Shown here one piece after another: positions 3,408 through 39,563 of a stretch of 64,000 nucleotides of DNA. Every line of letters begins with the position of its first letter. Positions within the stretch are counted from its first letter, which is position 1. Both the position numbers and the translations under genes were made by a program. The DNA comes from Candolleomyces eurysporus (lineage: Eukaryota > Basidiomycota > Agaricomycetes > Agaricales > Psathyrellaceae), in assembly GCA_027579435.1 (NCBI GenBank), contig JANBPK010001041.1, positions 1 through 64,000 of the forward strand, written 5' to 3'. The notes beneath the pieces were generated by a model, which saw only the letters and a program-made list of their open reading frames with translations, was not told the origin of the DNA and searched no databases.

Positions 3408-5115
3408 ATGTTGGAGCTTCCTTCAGAGCTTCAGCTATCGATTATCGAGCACCTCAATGTGTGCGACATCTATCACTTGCAGCAGGTGAGGACCGGTGAA
3501 GACACTTGCATGTCGATACTAATTCCTTTGACAAAACGATAACAGACTTGTAAAGGCCTCTATTCGTTGATTGAAGAAGAGGCAAAATCCGTATGGACCC
3601 GCTGTTTGCAACGACAGTGTGCCATGCACCGTCTATTTTGGCCGAGCTACAAGAATTTGTCGACGGCTACGGAGCTCAAGAACGCCTGCACCGGCATGGT
3701 GCGATTTCTGAGGGAGATGGATCATGCCTCAGCGCCCGGAACTGCCCTTTTACCTCGAACGACTTCTCTCGCACTCCCTCCCGGGGTTATGTCACCGCGG
3801 AGAATGTGTGATATCTACCTCATGCCTGGCGGTCGGTTTCTGCTGACCTTTGAATTCTCATGGATATTCGTCTGGGATCTACAGTCCATTAGCGACTGGA
3901 AACCACCCCCACTCTTGCTGCGTCATCCCATTGACGATGAGATCGACTGGGTTAGCACCCTGAAGGTGATCAGTAGCACCAAAGTCAGATTGCTCATGCG
4001 CATCAAGGTCATCTCAGGCAGCAACATGGGTTCACCAGTGTAAGTCTTTGTATTTTCATTATGAAGTGCAAAGGTTGATCACCGTTTTGTAGCGAGAACC
4101 TCAGGCCTGGAGAAGATCTCAGGTCTTGGAAGGTGTTCGAGCTGACTTACAACGATAACGACACTTTCTCTATCGAGACCGTCGGCCGCCTCGCGGTTGT
4201 CTGTCCTAAAGATCTGCCAGGAGATCCATGTGCCATTCTTGACTCTAATCGAGTTTTATTGCATGTCCACGAGTCCACTCTAGTATGGGACTTCTGCAAC
4301 AAGCGGATTTCCGTATGGACCCTCGAGGAATTACCCCCTGTTTGCGATGTACGTCCTCCCACCTTTAACGTCTCTTTTTCACGATATGGCTCATAGGACT
4401 CCTTTAGCTTTTTCCAAATCAAGGACACGTTTTCTATATCACGGCTGAAGGCGTTCATGGTGTTAAACCCTCTCCATTCCAACCGCTGCAAGACGGCCAA
4501 GTCTTGTCGGTTCCTCTTCAAGAATCTACCACCGCCACCTTCTGCGCATCTCATGAGCAAGTTCACAGCGTCTCTATCCTTCACGGTGTTGTCTGGGGAA
4601 ACCTATGGGGCACCGGTCTAGAAGCAGCACGATCCCTCACCTACGAATTGAAAGAAGAAGCAGACGATACAATCAAATTTTACCGATACAAATTCCAGTT
4701 CAACCACGCCGATCCTTTCAAGAGCTCATTGAAGCTCGTACATTCCTCGTCGCAACTCGTTGAGAACCTCAACATGGCCGGTTGCAATGACTTGCTTCTG
4801 CGGACAGACCAGTCGTGCGAGGATCGACGAGTAGCGCTCTGGACTGAAGGTCCTTTAAGCAGTTTTCGTGGTGCCGTGCTTCTCTCCCCTCGCGAGGCAT
4901 TTGACGATGAGGGTGCTGAATATCATCCCTCTCCATCTTCGACAAACCCTCGTGTCAGTGACCTCAAGATAATCCCCGTCCCTGTGATCGTCCCTGGTAC
5001 TGCATATTATCACTTTGATACCCTGGTCCCAGATTTCTGCTCTGCCTCGGGAAGGGTGGTAGTGCTTTGGTTGGCAAATGGCGATTTTCTGATAAGGGTA
5101 CATGATCTTTTGTAG
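3408..5115 (+). CDS. F-box protein, tandem copy 2 of 3
   Basis: Model: exons 3408-3485, 3546-4039, 4093-4348, 4408-5115, giving 511 residues. The start ATG is fixed by alignment with the other two copies. The F-box covers about residues 3-45 (LPSELQLSIIEHLNVCDIYH, then TCKGLY and SVWTRCL). The shared blade motif MPGGRFLLTF with WDL follows, and the C-terminal exon carries the family motif FCSASGRVVVLW. Only about 190 bp separate it from copy 1. Introns lie at the same codons as in copies 1 and 3 and are 53-60 nt long. It probably acts as a substrate receptor of an SCF ubiquitin ligase, inferred from the domain only. Confidence 0.82.
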
Positions 5116-5392
5116 ATTATCCTGGGTAGCGTGGAATTATAATTTTGTACTTGCTCGCCGAAGACTTGAAAGCGAAGGACTTCCAACCTGCAAAGGCCAA
5201 AGGTCTGCCAGGGTTCCACTGCTAGCCGGAATTGGATATTTGCTTTGATCGCTGGTGGCAAACAACGCGTCCGATGCGGTACTCCTCGCTGTGAACCTCT
5301 GAGCCTCTGCTCTAGGTTTAAAGCGCACCCGGCACTCAGCAATCTCCAGCGCCCGGCAGCCCAACAGCAGGCAGCGAAGGCGCAACAACAAG

Positions 5393-7137
5393 ATGTTGAA
5401 GCTCCCGTTAGAGCTTCAGCTCCTCGTCATCGAAGACCTTGGGGCCCTCGACATCTTCCACGTACAGCTGGTGAGCCGAAAGGTGATCAAAAAATACTTA
5501 CAGCCATCTTGCTAATAGAGACCTCAACAGACATGTAAACACCTCTCGAATTTAATTGAAACAGAAGCGTTGTCAGTCTGGAAGCGCTGTTTACGACTAC
5601 ATTGCCTCAAGAACCGTGCCTTTTGGCCGAGTTTCAAGGACCTTTCTACGGCTTCTGAGTTCAAGGATGCGTGCACTGGCATGCTGCGCTTTCTTCAAAC
5701 ACAGAATCGGGCGTTCTCGGCTGGCCACTCCCTGTCCCCCTCAACGACAACACTCTTATTCCCCAAAGAACTGTTGCCGCTATTAGATGTTCGCGACATC
5801 TACCTGGTTCCTGGGGGTCGGTTTGTTGGGACAATTGAGACTTCGTCTTTGGCCATTTGGGACCTTCGTTCAGTCAAAGACGACTCAAGACCCAGACTTT
5901 TGCTACGCCACCGTTTTGAAGAAGAGATTGATTGGGCTTCTGCTATTAAGATGATCGGTGCTGATAAAATCCGAGTTCTTCTTTCGCAGAATACCTCAAC
6001 TGAAGCGAATGCGCTGTAAGTTTTTGCGTTTGGCTTTATACTTCCAATTGAATGCACCGCTGACTTGCGGCTCAGCCATAATATTCAGCTTGGACAGGAA
6101 CTCAGGTCTTGGATAATGCTCGAGATAACTTGCCCAGACAACGGGGAATTCTTGATTCAAGTCCTCGGCCGCCTCTCTGTTGTTTGTCTGGAGCACCATG
6201 AGCCGGTCCCCCACCCCGTCATTGATTTGGATAGGGTTGTGGTCTCCGTCCCAAGGTTTACTTTGATGTGGGATATGAACCGCAAGGAAGTCTCTTGGTG
6301 GACCCTGCCAAGGGGTCTTCCCCGTATCTATACAGTACGTGAGCCATTGGTCCGGAGATCCCCTCGTCACTGCAATCCGCTAACTGAGTCATTTTTCAGG
6401 TCGTTCCAAATCAAGGTCATGTTTGCTATGTGACGGACGGAGGCATCCACGGGGTCGAGGTACCCCCATCCCGGCCTCTAGAAGACAACCAGGTCCTCCG
6501 ACTTCTACCACCCCCCTTCTCGGAAACGGCCATCCCCTGCAGTTTCTCCATACCTCACCAGCTTATTCACCATCGATTCAACGTCATTCCACTGGATTTG
6601 TACAATACAGGGACAGAGTCAAGACGATCCTTTTTCTACGAAGTTGCCGTCAACGAAGATGATGACAAAACACTGCGACTTTACCGATACCAGTTCATAT
6701 TAAACACAGCCAACCCAATGAAGAGTACACTAAACCTGGTAGAAACGTCGGCTTGGCCTCTTGGGGATCTCGCTCGGCCCAATCACAGATTGGTGCCATG
6801 GTCGTGTCGGCTATGTAATGGTCGAATGGCTATCGTATGGGCAGAAGACAAAGAGATTGACGATAGCGATGACGACAGCGACGACGGGATTGATTTGTCG
6901 ACATCGATGTTCGTATCGGTATCGTCTCCGGTCAGCATTTCCGACAGCCCCAGCCCACTGAGAACGCCAGGTACGGTCGGGAAAATCGGTCTCGTTCCCC
7001 TGGGACTTGATCCCGACTCCAACCCAACCTCGGTCTTTGACTTTACGCCAGAATTCTGTCCGACTTCGGGGAGGGTGGTAGTTCATTGGATGTCAGATAT
7101 TCATGGACACGCAGTGACGCTGCACGAGATTCTATAG
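5393..7137 (+). CDS. F-box protein, tandem copy 3 of 3
   Basis: Model: exons 5393-5470, 5531-6015, 6076-6334, 6400-7137, giving 519 residues. The F-box is LPLELQLLVIEDLGALDIFH then TCKHLSNLIE and SVWKRCL. The blade motif VPGGRFVGTI with WDL and the C-terminal FCPTSGRVVVHW match copies 1 and 2. An acidic stretch (DDSDDDSDDG) around residue 420 is specific to this copy. The second exon is 485 nt, as in copy 1, and the phases are the same, so this is a true tandem paralogue and not a chance ORF. A decayed relative lies near 26019. Confidence 0.82.
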
Positions 7138-9772: not shown

Positions 9773-9779
9773 TATAAAA
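9773..9779 (+). promoter_or_regulatory. TATA box of the pheromone precursor gene
   Basis: TATAAAA stands 141 bp before the pheromone ATG at 9914, followed by a CT-rich leader. That spacing suits a transcription start about 100 bp before the start codon. Confidence 0.5.
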
Positions 9780-9913: not shown

Positions 9914-10042
9914 ATGGATTCCTTCACCTCCATCACTGCTCTCCTTTCCAACACCGCCGCTGACGACGTTGTCGCAGTGAGCATCCCGACCGACGAGGAG
10001 AACAAGAAGCAATTCTCCGGTGGATACTGCACTATTGCCTGA
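9914..10042 (+). CDS. fungal mating pheromone precursor with CaaX motif
   Basis: A short intron-free ORF encodes 42 residues. It begins MDSF, as many agaricomycete pheromone precursors do, and ends GGYCTIA, a CaaX farnesylation box (Cys-Thr-Ile-Ala). Such precursors are prenylated, trimmed and carboxymethylated at the C-terminus and cleaved internally to a peptide of about 10-15 residues, which is exported and sensed by STE3-type receptors. An acidic/charged stretch (PTDEENKKQ) sits 9-17 residues before the Cys, where N-terminal processing usually occurs; the exact cut site cannot be read from sequence. A TATA box and a CT-rich leader precede it. No STE3 receptor is visible in the window, so membership of the mating-type B locus is unproven. 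Confidence 0.85.
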   Translation: MDSFTSITALLSNTAADDVVAVSIPTDEENKKQFSGGYCTIA

Positions 10043-10631
10043 GCAACAGGCTGTCTGGCATATTTATTTGCCTTGCCCTAGACCTACGATACCACATTCC
10101 TTGTAAGTCCTCGATCGCACACGTCGACATTAGCCAGTACTAACCAATATTTTTCGGCTTCTAGTTCATGACACACGACATCCATCACTAGCACCACATC
10201 GCATCGCACACGCACGCACACGAGCACACTGTACATCACCATCATACACATTCATTGCATTGCGCACGCGCAGTCCACGGAGAAGAGAGGAAGGGGAGAG
10301 GAGTGGCTTTCGAACTTACAACAAACACTTTCCGATTTGCTTTCGTTGATACCCTTATTACGTCGAGCAGCGAATCTCGACTACTTCGTTCTTCATCCAC
10401 CGCATTGATTTGCATTTGCATTGTTTCATTAAATCTTCTCGCAGAGATGTAGCATATTTGCCTGGGGCTCTGACGATATATCCACTAGTTAACGCTGAAT
10501 GAAATGACTTGACGATTAAGTTCCACCAACACCGGAATAGATTAAGAATGAAATGAATGATCGAATTACAGAGTGTGCAATTACAAGCGTTGGTGAGAGC
10601 GGCGCCTCACGACTCTGATAAAGTCGCCCCT
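10043..10631. other. 3' flank of pheromone gene, no gene seen
   Basis: A possible intron in the 3' untranslated region runs from a GTAAGT near 10101 to a CTAG near 10165. A CA-rich stretch follows at about 10197-10260. No coding region is supported. Confidence 0.35.
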
Positions 10632-11427
10632 TTATTTGATGAGGGTGAGGATGACGGATGAGACAGCGGTCGCGCCAAGCACGACATAGCCAGTGCTATA
10701 AGCACCCTTGACGGTCAAGACTACAAGGACGAGAATCAGGACTTGGTAAAAGACATAAAAGGGATGAGGACACTCACATTTTCCGGAATCCCAAGCCAAA
10801 TGCCTCAATCCGTTGATGGCGTGGTAGGAGAAAGGTGCAGCGAGAATGAATTTGCCTGCGTACTTGACGGATTCGGGGAGGGTCTGGACGGCCTCAATAA
10901 CGTGCGTGCTGTCGAATGTTCCAGGAGCGATGAGGTAGGCGATGGAGAAGCCGTAGAGCACTAAAGAGACAGTGGTCAGCCACACCAGTTGCCCCCGCGG
11001 ATGGTTGGAATCACATACAGACGCTGAGGCCAACACCAGTGACACGGTTAGCAATGGAGCCAATCCATGTCAGTTGAGGTTGGTAGATAGTGAAGTGGGG
11101 GCTGCTTGGTCGCTTCAGGCGTTGTTCGTTGAGGATACTGTCGGCAGCAGATGGGGGCAGGGAGTTGGTTTGCACAGATCTAATATGCACTGTTCAGTTG
11201 CACATTTCTTCCAGGCAACCGGAGTATGCGGCCTACCTTCTAGCCACAACATTTCGCATAACAGCGTTGTTGCGCACTAGCAGAACGAATTAGCTCTCGA
11301 GCTCATCGCCATCCCGCTGCCTCCAATATAGAGAGCAGCCTCGTGAGGTCATATACGCACGTGTTCGGGGTGCCAAAGCTGACTGCCTGAGGGCAGCACC
11401 AAGTCCAAGAGCTCGAGAGGCTATCAT
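10632..11427 (-). CDS. SDH3: succinate dehydrogenase cytochrome b560 subunit, mitochondrial
   Basis: Five exons: 11427-11361, 11276-11237, 11179-11019, 10960-10778 and 10720-10632, giving 179 residues with phase kept at each junction. The N-terminus is a basic mitochondrial presequence. The signature SPHFTIYQPQLTWIGSIANR is followed by three membrane helices. The heme-ligand region contains FSYHAINGLRHLAWD, and the protein ends in a helix with STGYVVLGATAVSSVILTL. The product anchors succinate dehydrogenase (complex II) in the inner membrane and takes part in ubiquinone reduction, linking the TCA cycle to respiration. Introns are 50-60 nt. Nothing suggests damage; this is an ordinary housekeeping gene. 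Confidence 0.92.
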
Positions 11428-21766: not shown

Positions 21767-23438
21767 ATGATGTCGTCGCCGAGCCTTTGGACCGTGGGGT
21801 TGCTTGGCGTCCTTGCCGTAACGGTCAGTGCACAGGCACCCGAGTACGTTCAGCGCCATCGTCGTTCAACAATCATCTTCTGTTCTAACTTCCTCCTCAA
21901 AGGTTCATTGGAGAGCTGTTGCTTCAGCCTCAAATCAATAACCGTGAGTCGCTCCGTATCCCTCTCAAGCACATTGGTTAAGAATCGATTCTAGAGAAGT
22001 GCCTTACAGCTTCAGCCAACAGCGACGGCGCAGCGGTCATCCTGCAGACATGCTCAGGATCCGCGAACCAGAAGTGGACGTTCACCGGAGGCACCATGAG
22101 AGCATTCGGAAATAAGTGCTTGGATGTGAAAGAAGGTCTCAACCAGGATGGAACGAAGTTGCAGGTGTGGACTTGCAGTGCCAACAACGCGAACCAGCAG
22201 TGGTACTACAGCAAATGGGATAATACGGTTACCTGGACTGGCAAGGGCAAGTGCATTGATGTGGCTGAAGGGAGCCAGGCGGATGGGACTTTGGTGGGTG
22301 GGATCGTCCTAGACTCGCTTTTCCAATCGTCAAGGTTTATTGACAAGGTTCTTGACGTGTTTGTAGATTCAAGTCTGGGGTTGCTACAACAAGAACCCCA
22401 ATCAAGTCTGGAGCACTGGTTACCTGACCAGCGCGTTGCCCAACAAATCTCAGAACGGCCAATCTGGCACGAACAATTGCGGAACCGGATCGAGCCAGTC
22501 TTCGAATTGCCAAACGGCTTGGATCAAGTGAGACCAGCCCTGATGAACCCTGGAGATATCTACTGACGAATATATTGCTTTTAATAGCTCTGCGACCGAC
22601 TTCTGCTTGTGGGCTCCACCGTACCCTGGTACGGTTGGTGACACAGAAAGGGAAGCCGTTGCCTACTGCACAAAATCTGGGCGCGGCACGCGCATCATAC
22701 CGGACGGCACTTTACGAGGAGTACATTTCGTCAAGACATCTGAATACGTCCAGATCACGGGTGTCGGCGATTTCACGAAGATGAACATCCCAGCAGGCGA
22801 CGATGGTGGAGAGATGGATAACAGAGGCGCAGATGGTAAAGGCAACCCGAGTATGTTTTCGCGCTCTTATTGGAATCAATTCTGCAGCAGAACCTGACGC
22901 AATATTCTCGCTTTATTATAGTTGGAGGACTTCTCTATGGCAACACATTTGGCGCCGGCTTGCAGTATCATGAATGGACCGAATTCATTTCGGATGACGA
23001 ATTCTGCATTCGGGCTTGCATCGGTCCCCGTTCTAAACAGCTTTGCAACCACATCTATGATATCATGGGTTGCTGGTGGGTGAGTATCATTCTTCCTCAT
23101 CTTCCTCATCTTCTTCTCAAATGTCGCACGTTGGATATTAAAATCGGTTTTTTCCCCAGAACATACCAGCCAACTACGGTGCTGGAGTTTATGAAGAGTG
23201 TGTTGGAGACCCGGCAATACCTATGGGAGTCTATGGTACCTCAACATGGTCCCAGGGAATCAGCCCGACGCCTCCACCACACCCGGCTCCTGCTTCAAGC
23301 AGCTGCACGACCATGTCCACTATTAGTGTCACTCCCCTGAGACGAAGCTTGGGAGCCGAGGCTGAGGTGCCGGTTCCTCTTGCCAGGAGGTATCCTGTCC
23401 CCTCGTTCCCTGGGGCAACTGCGATGCCCGTTGCTTAG
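21767..23438 (+). CDS. secreted ricin-B-type lectin fused to a macrophage-activating-glycoprotein-like domain
   Basis: Seven exons: 21767-21843, 21903-21943, 21995-22293, 22367-22527, 22588-22850, 22922-23079 and 23160-23438, giving 425 residues. A signal peptide covers about residues 1-23 (LLGVLAVTVSAQA). A ricin-B/CBM13-type beta-trefoil follows at about 30-150, with QxW repeats NQKW, NQQW and NQVW and the motif KCLDVKEGLNQDGT. The second part matches the agaricomycete macrophage-activating glycoprotein family: TDFCLWAPPYPGTVGDTERE, YVQITGVGDFTKMNIP, GADGKGNP, YHEWTEFISDDEFC and MGVYGTSTWSQG. The tail is rich in Ser and Pro. The protein should be extracellular or wall-associated and may bind glycans through the trefoil. 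Its biological role is not established. Confidence 0.85.
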
Positions 23439-34842: not shown

Positions 34843-35275
34843 ATGACCAACGGGTTAGTTGAGCCTCCTTCGCCCTCTTACGATGATCCTATCTTCAATT
34901 CAAACTAGAGTATCTGAGGACTCAGTCCGATGCTTTTATTTTTTTTTCTTCTGACCTTCCTCTATCTCCTTTCATCCAACAGAGCCCAGCTAACACTTCT
35001 ATTTTCAGGCTTGCCGCCCATGCCCTTTCCCGACTCCATATCGAAGCCAACCTGCATTGTAAGTCTCTGGTCTTGACCTTCCCCTGATGATAAAAAGGAA
35101 TTACCGCCTGTTCCATCTTTGATGGAGTTGATGACAATTCCATGGCTGTTTTTTTTAAATCCTGATCCCTCTCATTATGTGCCGTCCATTGAGTGTATCG
35201 CTTACGCTCCGCTTTCTAGTGGCCGGGGTTGCCGACCTCGGAGAATGGACTCATCCCGGATACCCGGCATTGTAG
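34843..35275 (+). CDS. candidate three-exon microprotein (38 residues)
   Basis: Exons 34843-34853 (11 nt), 35009-35058 (50 nt) and 35220-35275 (56 nt) join in phase through GT-AG introns of 155 and 161 nt with good donor and acceptor sites (GTTAGT/TTTCAG and GTAAGT/TTCTAG). The product begins MTNGLAAHALSRLHIEANLH and ends EWTHPGYPAL. The first half could form an amphipathic helix. Introns are about three times longer than elsewhere in the window. I do not recognise it. It could be a real micro-gene, the visible part of a longer gene with missed exons, or chance; phase agreement at two junctions is the main support. Confidence 0.35.
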
Positions 35276-36245
35276 GATATACGTGATCACTGCTCCACTC
35301 TGTGCGTATTGTCCTTTCTCCCTGTGCGTGATGTTTTATCACGACGGTCTTCGTACTGCCATGCACGAAAATGCCCGCCACAGCTCAATCTCTCGGGCAA
35401 CCCCATCTGATCCCTTTTACCTTTCATCTTTGACTGAACGACGCTAATCCTTCCTTCATATCAGGTCCTGTACTCCACTTGGCCCTCTGGGCTGCGGTCC
35501 GAACTCTCAAGCTATTTATATCTTGTAGAGACGGTTTTAGCCCCAGCTTCTTCTCCGCTATCATGTACATAAGACGTCTCCGAGTCGACTGTCGGCACTA
35601 GCTTCGACCCGGCGGAATATTACATATCGATGATCCAATATTTCGTGGTTTTCAAAGCCCAATTTCAGTTAAGCTACCAGAGAGGTCGACTGTCACCCAC
35701 TAACCCCCGGGCCACATGGTGATGCAATTATTCCGCTTCTGCTGGACAGCCAATCACCTCCAACCTATACGTCGAAGTTTCGTAAAACGTGAGTTCATTT
35801 GTCCCTCAGTGACAAATCGTTATTCCCGGATATAGCACTCAACCCCTCACATTCGCGGTATGACTTTCTCCTTCTTCCCCTTGGCAGTAAACGCAATGAA
35901 TTGTCCTGACATGGTGTATCACCGCCTCAGCGGCCATGTCGGTGGTGGTCTCCCATCCAGTCAAGAAGATCTCGGCCTCTGCGTCTAGACCTCTCGAGGT
36001 ATTCAATCTCTTTGGCTAAAAGGTGCGTTATAGCGGACCGCGTGCCCTGTAAGCGCTGAAATTATGAATAATCTCAGATAACACGGCCAGCAAGCACTCC
36101 GATCTCTCAGGACACTGCGTTCTATTGATCTCTGCTGCTCTGTCATCTGAATCATTGGCGTGCTGCAAGCCGTAAGAATAGCTTCTGCCTCTCTTCAGAA
36201 TTAGATTTTGTTGGCCGTGCCGCAAAAAGAGGGTTGTCACTAGAG
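35276..36245. other. intergenic stretch
   Basis: No gene is supported. This is the upstream region of the oxalate decarboxylase gene. Confidence 0.4.
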
Positions 36246-36252
36246 TATAAAA
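36246..36252 (+). promoter_or_regulatory. TATA box within an inverted repeat, oxalate decarboxylase gene
   Basis: TATAAAA lies 90 bp before the ATG at 36336. It is flanked by a perfect 7-nt inverted repeat, TAGAGTA (about 36241-36247) and TACTCTA (about 36255-36261). Confidence 0.5.
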
Positions 36253-36335
36253 TCTACTCTAGGATGGCCTATTTTCTCTCAACTCGTTCTTCCAAGAGTT
36301 GCTCACATCTCCAGAACCAGTTTTTCAAGTCCGCG

Positions 36336-38582
36336 ATGATTCGCATTTCCTCCTGCTTCGTCGCCTTGCTCCTCGCGACTTACTCGCTTGCTCTGCCTGC
36401 GGCCGACTTTTCTCGACGACGATGGATGGTCGATGATCTCGAGGCGCGCGACGGAGGGTCGTCGACTAGCTCTACGGGAACCGCTACGAGCACCGCGACT
36501 GGCACTAGTCCTCCTGCGGCCTCTGCGACAACCCCACTTATTAGTCTCGATCCCAATAACCCTGTGTGGGATTCCACCTTCAATGGTCCTTTCGACGCGA
36601 TCAGGGGAGAGCTCGGTGCAACCATTATTGGGCCTAACAATCCCAATATTGCGCAACAGAACCCGGACTTGTTCGCTCCCCCGACCACCGATGGAGGGAG
36701 TGTGTAAGTGCACCTGTCTATCCTGTCACATTTGCTTTTGGGGTGCCCACGACTTGATACTAATCATGAGGTTTTTGAACTAGACCTAACTTCAAGTGGC
36801 CGATGAGCTTGAGCCACAATCGCCTCCAGACGGGTGGTTGGGCCCGTCAACAGAACGGTGAGTTATCTTTAGTGCCTCTGGACTAGCCTCCGAAAAGAAG
36901 CTGATGGTATCTCGTAGTCGATGAAATGCCCATTGCGAAAGGTTGGTTTCGCGCGTTCCGTTCGTCCAGACCCCGTTTCTAAAAATATGATATAGCTATG
37001 GCCGGTGTAAACATGAGGCTGAAGCCAGGAGCGGTTCGTGAGCTTCATTGGCACAGTACCGCCGAGGTGAACTTCTTCTCTTGGTTTCTCGTTAGTCGGC
37101 CACTGATCGCCTTGTAAACGAAAACAGTGGGCCTACGTTATCAAAGGAAGCACGCAGGTCACCTCCGTTGATCAAGAAGGAAGGAACTTTATCTCGACTG
37201 TGGTACGTTCTTTCCTCGAAAGGATATAGACGGTGGGTTTGATAGGCGCCTTGGGATCTTCTAGGGCCCTGGCGACTTGTGGTACTTCCCTCCTGGTATC
37301 CCCCATTCCCTCCAAGCCACCGGTGATGACCCCGATGGTTCTGAGTTCTTGTTGGTCTTCAACGATGGAACTTTCAGCGAAGATAATACATTCATGGTCA
37401 GTAGTGAAAATCCTTTTCCCCGAAGGAAACGGTATTGATACCGTATGCCTCGTTTCCAGCTGACTGATTGGATGGCGCACGTTCCTGCTGAAGTCCTTGC
37501 CAAGAACTTCCAATTGGATGTCAAGGAATTCGCCAACGTCCCGGCCAAGGAGCTCTACATTTTCCCCACCGGTGAGTAGAACGCCGTCTCAGTCATACCT
37601 ACTCAGCTTAACTGGATTATCTATCATTTTGAAGATGTCCCCGCCGACGATCAGCCAGCGCCCGAAAGCCCTTTTGGGACCGTTCCCGAGCCTTTCTCCT
37701 TTGCGCTTTCCAAGGTGCCTGCTACAAAGTTCTCTGGAGGTACCGCAAAAATCGTCGATTCCACTACCTTCAAAATCTCGACCGCGATTGCTGCTGCCGA
37801 CGTTACTGTTGAGCCTGGTGCAATGAGGTGCGGGACTGTTCAAATTTACTTTGACATGGAAGGATATTGATTGTCGGTTTCCATTCATATTCATAGGGAG
37901 CTTCACGTAAGTCTTTCGCTCTTCTGAGCGGGTGGAACTACAAATCGAACGTCGAGTGCTGACTTTTCTTCTTATGATTTAGTGGCACCCCACTGAGGAC
38001 GAGTGGACGTTCTTCCTGTGAGCCAAATTTCTTCCATCCCTGTGATAATTTGTCTTCTCACTGCGCTTTGTGCACAGCGAGGGCGAAGGCCGAGTTACTC
38101 TCTTCGCTGGCGGGAACAATGCCCAAACCTTCGATTTCCAGGCTGGCGACGTTGGTATGTACACTTGTGCCTAATCTTGCACGCGTGCGCTTATATGTGT
38201 CTCAGCTTATATCCCGGCTTCTAACGGTAAGATACTGAGGGGACTCCCATAACCTTCTCCTCCCATGTTAACTTGCTAACTCGAACTCTCTCTAGGCCAT
38301 TACGTCGAGAACACCGGCAACACCACTTTGCACTTCCTCGAGATTTTCAACACCGGTGAGCATTCGTCCCGCAGAATTTTCGCCATGATAGTTCATCAGC
38401 CTAATACACCCTGTACAGACCGATTCGCCGATATCTCCCTTAACCAATGGTTGGCCCTCACTCCTCCGCCGCTCGTCAAGGCCCACCTTGGATTCTCCGA
38501 CGAAACTATCAGCAAGCTGCAGAAGGTCAAGCCGGTTGTCGTCGGCCCTGGTCTTTTCAACAACAAGACCAGCAGCGCTTGA
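36336..38582 (+). CDS. bicupin oxalate decarboxylase, secreted
   Basis: Fourteen exons: 36336-36703, 36784-36857, 36918-36941, 36996-37066, 37128-37202, 37265-37396, 37460-37571, 37635-37827, 37897-37906, 37983-38017, 38078-38154, 38206-38226, 38296-38355 and 38419-38582, giving 471 residues. The enzyme converts oxalate to formate and CO2 with Mn. The ATG at 36336 is chosen because a signal peptide starts there ([18 protein letters not shown]); the upstream in-frame ATG at 36264 lies too near the TATA box. A Ser/Thr-rich linker follows. Cupin 1 has [11 protein letters not shown] and PPGIPHSLQ; cupin 2 has [12 protein letters not shown] and [13 protein letters not shown]. Both metal sites look complete. 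Exon 9 is only 10 nt and carries part of the second metal motif. Confidence 0.92.
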
Positions 38583-39563
38583 GATTGAGAATTGTCTTGC
38601 TGTCCTGGGTCTTTGATTTCCAGATGATACATCGCTAATGTGAACTGCCGACCTTTTCAAGATGTTTTAAATCCTCTTCTTTCTTGCTTTTCCCCGATGC
38701 TAACCGGGTAATAAATACCTCTCATGTAATTTTACGAATACTTACGATCAAGTGACTAAATGTGATTCCTTTACGCGCCACAGACATTGAGATACCTTCT
38801 TACCTCAGGGGATTGAGTTCTTCGAGGGTTCGAACCCTCGCCCAGCGAGTCCTAGAGGCGTAGCATTTCAAGTTCCGACAAGCGCCCTCTTTGCTCTTGA
38901 CCACCATCACCGGCCACCGGTCTCCTTCCCATCATTATGATCGTGTCAATGAACCCCCAACAAACAAAAAATTGATGCATTCTCCAGCTTGGAGCGAACG
39001 ATCCTAGGACTCGTTGATCTACTATCAGTGCAATGCTCAGCGGCGCCAGCGCGATTGGTTTCATCTAGCCAAAAGTGGGTTAGCAGACTCGGTGTTGTTG
39101 GATCAAGCAGGCGTCGAATTTCGCTATGGGCCTTCAAGGGAAGCTCCCTGTACGAGCCCTCCGTCGATGCCCTTTGCACTCTATCTAACACGATTGTGGC
39201 NGGGGGGACGACGGGAAGATACGTCCCCGACTGTCGAGGGCAGCTCGGAGATAGTGAGAAGTCAAGATGAAACGATCGTGCGTGTGTCAAAGTTTCTCTC
39301 ATGATGCTGATATGCTGAACGTCGCCTTATGTCTCTCCACCCTTCATCGCTCTGTGGCTATCAGTGATTATCTGCCTTCATTGCTTCATTCCACCTTTCT
39401 TCCCCTTGTAACGGTACGGGCGCGGGGACAACGGGTTCAGGTATAACATTGGGCGTCATCGCTCCACGGGTCACTGTTTACACTCCTTTGTGTCTACCCG
39501 CTCAATTGTACCTGGTGTACATCCCTATCCAACCTTTTCCTTCATCGAGTCCGCAGCCAAGGA
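38583..39563. other. intergenic stretch
   Basis: No gene is supported. An N precedes a G6 run at 39201. A palindrome resembling a tRNA T-arm is at 38823-38840, but no tRNA could be folded around it. Confidence 0.4.

Follow-up and report, generated by a model that had tools for sequence, protein, structure and literature searches.

An ORF of 42 codons at positions 9914–10042 (forward strand) of the Candolleomyces eurysporus sequence analysed here is, in our judgement, very likely a genuine single-copy gene that encodes a small lipopeptide precursor of a-factor type and non-mating-type class, as judged from its own features and those of its relatives. It belongs to a family of at least 28 loci in the genome, none of which is located on a contig with a STE3 match. 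By itself it represents one more receptor-less pheromone-like precursor; the surrounding family matters more. The window, i.e. the whole stretch of 64,000 nucleotides analysed, comprises bases 1–64000 of contig C45 (183,206 bp) in an assembly of 65.85 Mb and 1296 contigs.

Structure of the precursor gene

The deduced protein, MDSFTSITALLSNTAADDVVAVSIPTDEENKKQFSGGYCTIA, has 42 aa (42 codons plus stop) and was present exactly as an earlier note on this DNA had given it, with the MDSF start and the GGYCTIA end. The following features were assigned, with their basis in brackets:

9773..9779, forward strand: TATA box-like TATAAAA (141 bases 5' of the ATG, in an ATG-free interval)
9914..10042, forward strand: coding sequence of the 42-aa precursor, stop included (ORF, paralogue alignment, simulation and codon bias)
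9914..9925, forward strand: MDSF leader motif (sequence; conserved in a relative with 81% identity)
9992..10000, forward strand: D-E-E, putative N-terminal processing motif (sequence; D27 and E29 invariant across 5 aligned members)
10001..10030, forward strand: putative mature core NKKQFSGGYC, with its exact ends inferred from the motifs
10028..10039, forward strand: CaaX box CTIA, farnesylation type (sequence; C39, I41 and A42 invariant in the aligned members)
10103..10164, forward strand: predicted 62-base 3'-UTR intron, GTAAGT...TACTAAC...CTAG (signature starting 60 bases past the stop)

An MD[SA]F leader and the processing motifs EE/DE are named in PMC8305134. Basidiomycete a-type precursors are about 40–100 aa long and end in a CaaX box, and the window protein agrees with both in its 42 aa and its CTIA; these precursors also carry a charged motif 10–15 residues from the C-terminus, which is matched by DEE at residues 27–29 of 42, 13–15 residues ahead of the last residue. 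The charged stretch before the CaaX box to which the earlier note pointed is present, its informative portion being the DEE motif.

Of the 9 frames tested in the window, the closest one to give a Pfam match was an exon of succinate dehydrogenase cytochrome b (10632–11069, reverse strand). A frame with a ricin-type beta-trefoil lectin domain was found at 21982–22566 (forward strand), and several similar consecutive frames without a Pfam match (e.g. 3543–4043 and 5519–6019), resembling a tandemly duplicated gene, occupy 3543–7137 (forward strand).

Evidence for a functional precursor

Judging from its sequence, the ORF very probably represents a gene. The entire 183,206-bp contig has 5 loose CaaX-ended ORFs of 30–120 aa, and the window ORF is the sole one with both an MDxF start and a tight CaaX box; 20 first-order Markov simulations (3.66 Mb) yielded 173 loose, 6 tight and no MDxF-plus-tight ORFs. 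Its codon choice exceeded that of all 2000 of 2000 synonymous recodings at the flanking base composition, the codon table used for scoring having been derived from six frames of the window, some of which are possibly not genes. A relative on a 621-base ENA contig, the only other protein returned by a single-sequence search with the window protein, is 81% identical over 42/42 residues and retains MDSF, DEE and SGGYCTIA. Paralogues in the same genome have weak individual E values (0.014, 0.12 and 0.17), and an alignment of 5 members including three paralogues has M1, D2, F4, I24, P25, D27, E29, S35, C39, I41 and A42 invariant. The paralogues on C464 (131,221 bp) and C64 (89,992 bp) agree in sequence with H1R20_g14333 and H1R20_g10632 of C. 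eurysporus, respectively.

A profile search with the family matched C. aberdarensis proteins that UniRef names Pheromone. The Pfam Pheromone model (PF08015) gave the window protein 18.1 bits (E 0.006), under the curated cut-off of 22 bits, which is no biological requirement; the relatives P0003–P0005, P0008, P0018, P0019 and P0024 carry PF08015. Together, the relatives, the invariant residues and the UniRef matches support the pheromone-type precursor that had been proposed, with the PF08015 score remaining below the cut-off. With a 1201-base DNA query over the gene, only the gene itself was matched in the assembly. Some other loci (one C268/C142 pair and C560/C1073) are present twice at about 94–95% identity, as expected if two haplotypes were partly separated.

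The TATA box-like site and the 3'-UTR intron signature also speak for a gene. A TATA-like site at –110 to –220 has a background rate of 4.7%, and such sites occur within 260 bases upstream in 13 of the 17 genes tested, L006, one of the four genes without it, having 4 upstream bases. The 3'-UTR intron signature, with a background rate of 11% per 200 bases, was found in 5/17 genes and is weak family evidence.

Two readings that deny the ORF a signalling role were weighed against these data. That it is a chance or decayed ORF agrees with the commonness of short ORFs, with the 5 loose CaaX ORFs on the contig and with the broken state of several family members elsewhere (C81, C88, C963 and one on C42), but is hard to reconcile with the absence of comparable ORFs from the simulated sequence, the 81% identical relative and the codon bias, and we regard it as extremely improbable. 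Scarcely less improbable is a prenylated peptide that remains intracellular or membrane-bound and gives no secreted signal: a CaaX box by itself indicates likely prenylation and no more, yet the leader, the DEE motif and the relatives are all those of pheromone-type precursors.

Receptors and the B mating locus

No STE3 (PF02076) match was found on C45 at E ≤ 0.001 in six frames over the whole 183-kb contig, so that the absence of STE3 from the window, observed in the earlier note, is confirmed and extended. The search beyond the window that the same note had recommended returned, for the whole contig, no STE3 and the 5 loose CaaX ORFs. As the window begins at contig base 1, the left flank of the gene is covered for 9.9 kb. 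Within the reach of the contig, the surmise of a solitary gene outside B is supported, and the gene is one of many such genes. Elsewhere in the assembly, 40 exon-level STE3 matches were located on six contigs (C215, C63, C912, C1217, C372 and C1141), and precursor-like CaaX ORFs occur within about 1 kb of such matches on C372 (...LAFGTYCVIA), C63 (...YGQYCIIS) and C1141 (...TTFCVVA). These receptor-adjacent ORFs differ in sequence from the window gene and were not returned by the window-protein search.

Chief among the competing explanations is that the gene encodes a genuine mating-type pheromone and either was displaced from the B (P/R) locus or lies at its edge, the peptide activating the receptor of another mating type. 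The anatomy of the precursor equals that of B-locus precursors, and the contig stops 9.9 kb to the left of the gene. Against it stand 183 kb without a STE3 match, the distinctness of the ORFs beside the receptors on C372, C63 and C1141, and the relatives of the window gene, which are likewise unlinked; we consider it unlikely. The edge of a B locus, one of the placements offered in the earlier note, was judged unlikely on account of the lack of a STE3 match on C45, with the left flank ending after 9.9 kb, and, as to the label "mating" given there to the pheromone, comparison with A. bisporus, C. cinerea, L. bicolor and Pycnoporus points to the non-mating-type class.

Around the STE3-like receptors on C215, C912 and C1217 (L001, L002, L004, L005 and L008), the matched stretches that were read and about 1.5 kb beside them contained no precursor-like CaaX ORF. 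These receptors are candidates for sensing unlinked peptides.

Family members in the genome

Family loci were found by means of PF08015, three family proteins, a degenerate C-terminal pattern and the reading of short stretches. According to the number of peptide units they could be divided into three groups:

Single-unit, 8 loci: C45 (the window gene), C64, C464, C1022 and four in a row on C225 (C225:37824 known from the match table alone)
Two-unit, 5 loci: C42 (twice), C1036, C88 and C963; intact are C42:103404 and C1036, whereas C42:106012 is interrupted by an in-frame stop and the 5' frame of C88 and C963 is broken
Three-unit, 15 loci: five in a row on C268, two on C142 and one each on C560, C1073, C966, C1249, C491, C1146, C1241 and C81; 14/15 are intact, the 5' frame of C81 being shifted

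Multi-unit precursors are thus encoded at 20 loci (15 three-unit and 5 two-unit), of which 16 are intact; the broken members (C88, C963, C81 and C42:106012) result from decay or from errors in the assembly. The pattern Y-C-x-[IV]-A-stop gave 30 matches, versus 7 for a reversed control, and these comprised 25 family members, 1 precursor-like ORF on C372 and 4 chance-looking matches (C1210 and 3 that were read in sequence). The W-C version gave 5 matches versus 0 for its control: C64 and C464, which belong to the family, and C1132, C1138 and C182.

The tandem array of five on C268 (L039, C268:1–10000) encodes three-unit precursors of 77 aa, as do L009, L011, L013, L014 and L016. Gene starts in this array are about 3.3–4.0 kb apart, and the tandem units fetched are about 78–87% identical. 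For a transposon as possible carrier of the array, inspection of the frame list by eye revealed no long transposon-like frame. On C225, positions 35129–39244 (L044, L045 and L046) hold four consecutive single-unit precursor genes with CVIA ends and clearly differing cores.

Multi-unit precursors

In the multi-unit precursors, the internal peptides end in C-V-[VI]-F-x-[KR] and the final peptide ends in C-[TI]-I-A. The layout of a three-unit precursor is MDSFTTIKPTHIPTDAEGSGPSGSGGYC-VIFAK-DVPADKEGDGSSGSGGYC-VVFNK-DIPADFEGDGSSGSGGYC-TIA; the three-unit relatives contain the core GDGSSGSGGYC, and those on C491 and C1249 have C-IIA ends. In the two-unit precursors from this genome, the internal unit reads SGGYC-VVF[AS]K-E and the terminal one SGGYC-TIA, and similar two-unit precursors were found by database search in C. 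aberdarensis, C. efflorescens and Ephemerocybe angulata. Among the database relatives, P0012 has C-VVS-R internally, others (e.g. P0006 and P0008) have an incomplete internal unit, and P0004, P0005, P0009 and P0011 are cut.

The 11-residue cores of 15 two-unit precursors, i.e. 11 from databases and 4 from this genome (with C88 and C963, which have a broken 5' frame, identical in sequence), were compared; P0011 (a single complete unit), all single- and three-unit proteins and the C42 copy with an in-frame stop were omitted. On average 9.1 residues were shared within a precursor and 6.7 between precursors, and identical cores were found in 7/15 comparisons within precursors versus 13/210 between them. 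None of 20,000 shuffles of the cores reached the observed sum, a statistic that ignores relatedness, and the pattern is uneven, with 5/15 precursors sharing just 6 or 7 of the 11 residues. For the three-unit copies, 45 pairs gave dN of 0–0.052 and dS of 0.019–0.534, with a ratio of about 0.17 at most; the set consisted of 10 of the 14 intact copies, some of which are probably alleles. Flanks of the three-unit loci are far less conserved than the coding sequence, and the C1241 copy aligned over the coding sequence plus a few bases, no other flank stretch of more than 100 bases being aligned.

The internal units are thus conserved, be it through selection on the peptides, through selection on the whole precursor, or with the aid of gene conversion. 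Purifying selection on the three-unit copies and the matching cores inside two-unit precursors suggest that internal units yield peptides too, in the manner described in red yeasts for rhodotorucine A. We tentatively propose a broader scheme, which is quite possible and which we would stop short of calling probable: Psathyrellaceae mushrooms may run a second, receptor-unlinked lipopeptide signalling system that has been amplified to dozens of peptide units in each genome. Its two- and three-unit precursors would each release several farnesylated peptides by being cut internally near C-V-[VI]-F-x-[KR]; this would be a design like that of rhodotorucine, in mushrooms and outside mating type, with the window gene as a single-unit member.

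Proposed processing and role

In the published scheme, the CaaX cysteine is farnesylated, the last three residues are lost, methylation follows, and cuts are made past the leader and at the charged motif (PMC8305134). By the known pathway, i) the window precursor would be made in the cytoplasm, ii) C39 would be farnesylated, TIA removed and C39 methylated, iii) the N-terminal part would be cleaved near the DEE motif, leaving a product of about 10–12 residues that ends in FSGGYC, approximately NKKQFSGGYC-farnesyl, iv) this peptide would be exported via an a-factor-type transporter, and v) it would be read by a STE3-like receptor whose gene is located elsewhere and may lack a neighbouring precursor gene. 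In the multi-unit relatives, a cut near [KR] would be needed to expose C-V-[VI]-F of the internal units. Since it lacks linkage to a receptor, the window gene would not define mating type; our guess is that the peptide most likely serves in self-sensing, hyphal fusion or fruiting.

Comparison with known systems

On sequence grounds, the window gene agrees with the non-mating-type pheromone-like precursors known from Agaricus, Coprinopsis, Laccaria and Pycnoporus. Like these (PMC8305134; PMC4101180), it combines a similar length, the MD[SA]F leader, the charged motif and the CaaX end with a location unlinked to receptors, the left side being covered for 9.9 kb. In A. bisporus, four precursors are scattered away from the receptors, at least 3 are expressed with a 3'-UTR intron, which is found in three of the four transcripts and predicted in the window gene, and three resemble the non-mating-type peptides GGGSGNGAYC of C. 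cinerea and GGGSGNNAYC of L. bicolor (PMC8305134). Compared with this consensus, GGGSGN[GN]AYC, the window core NKKQFSGGYC fits in its SGGYC end but not in NKKQF and is less glycine-rich; its genome also differs from that of A. bisporus in having at least 28 family loci, some of them encoding multi-unit precursors, versus four precursors. Four of the seven P. cinnabarinus precursors are like the presumed non-mating-type class (PMC4101180), two pheromone-like peptides of P. tuoliensis are on scaffolds distinct from those of matB (PMC5755439), and for F. velutipes more receptor-distant pheromones are expected, with a mating-type role thought unlikely (PMC3140503). The B mating-type precursors of Rhizopogon and Flammulina share the leader, the charged dipeptide 10–15 residues before the end and the CaaX box (PMC5473757, PMC5100862), but they adjoin receptors, whereas the window gene has none on its contig.

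The multi-unit relatives, though not the single-unit window gene, resemble two further systems (PMC3068285). Rhodotorucine A precursors of red yeasts have tandem peptides with CaaX-like spacers between them, but belong to another branch of the phylum, contain another peptide and are mating pheromones; HPP1, the h-type pheromone precursor of Trichoderma reesei, has repeated CaaX-like cysteines and one true C-terminal CaaX, but is from an ascomycete and has Kex2 sites and another sequence. None of the literature matches listed, with subscription papers outside the scope, described mushroom lipopeptide precursors with several units, and the multi-unit family is offered as a lead with no claim to priority. 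If the internal units are processed, a cut within the precursor would occur before or along with prenylation, a step absent from the usual a-factor pathway. The Candolleomyces genome paper reports receptors and HD genes (PMC12786890), and in S. commune, receptors without precursor neighbours are called orphans and self-sensing has been proposed (PMC8161036); a set of candidate ligands that is conserved and amplified within a single genome makes the question of the orphan receptors directly testable.
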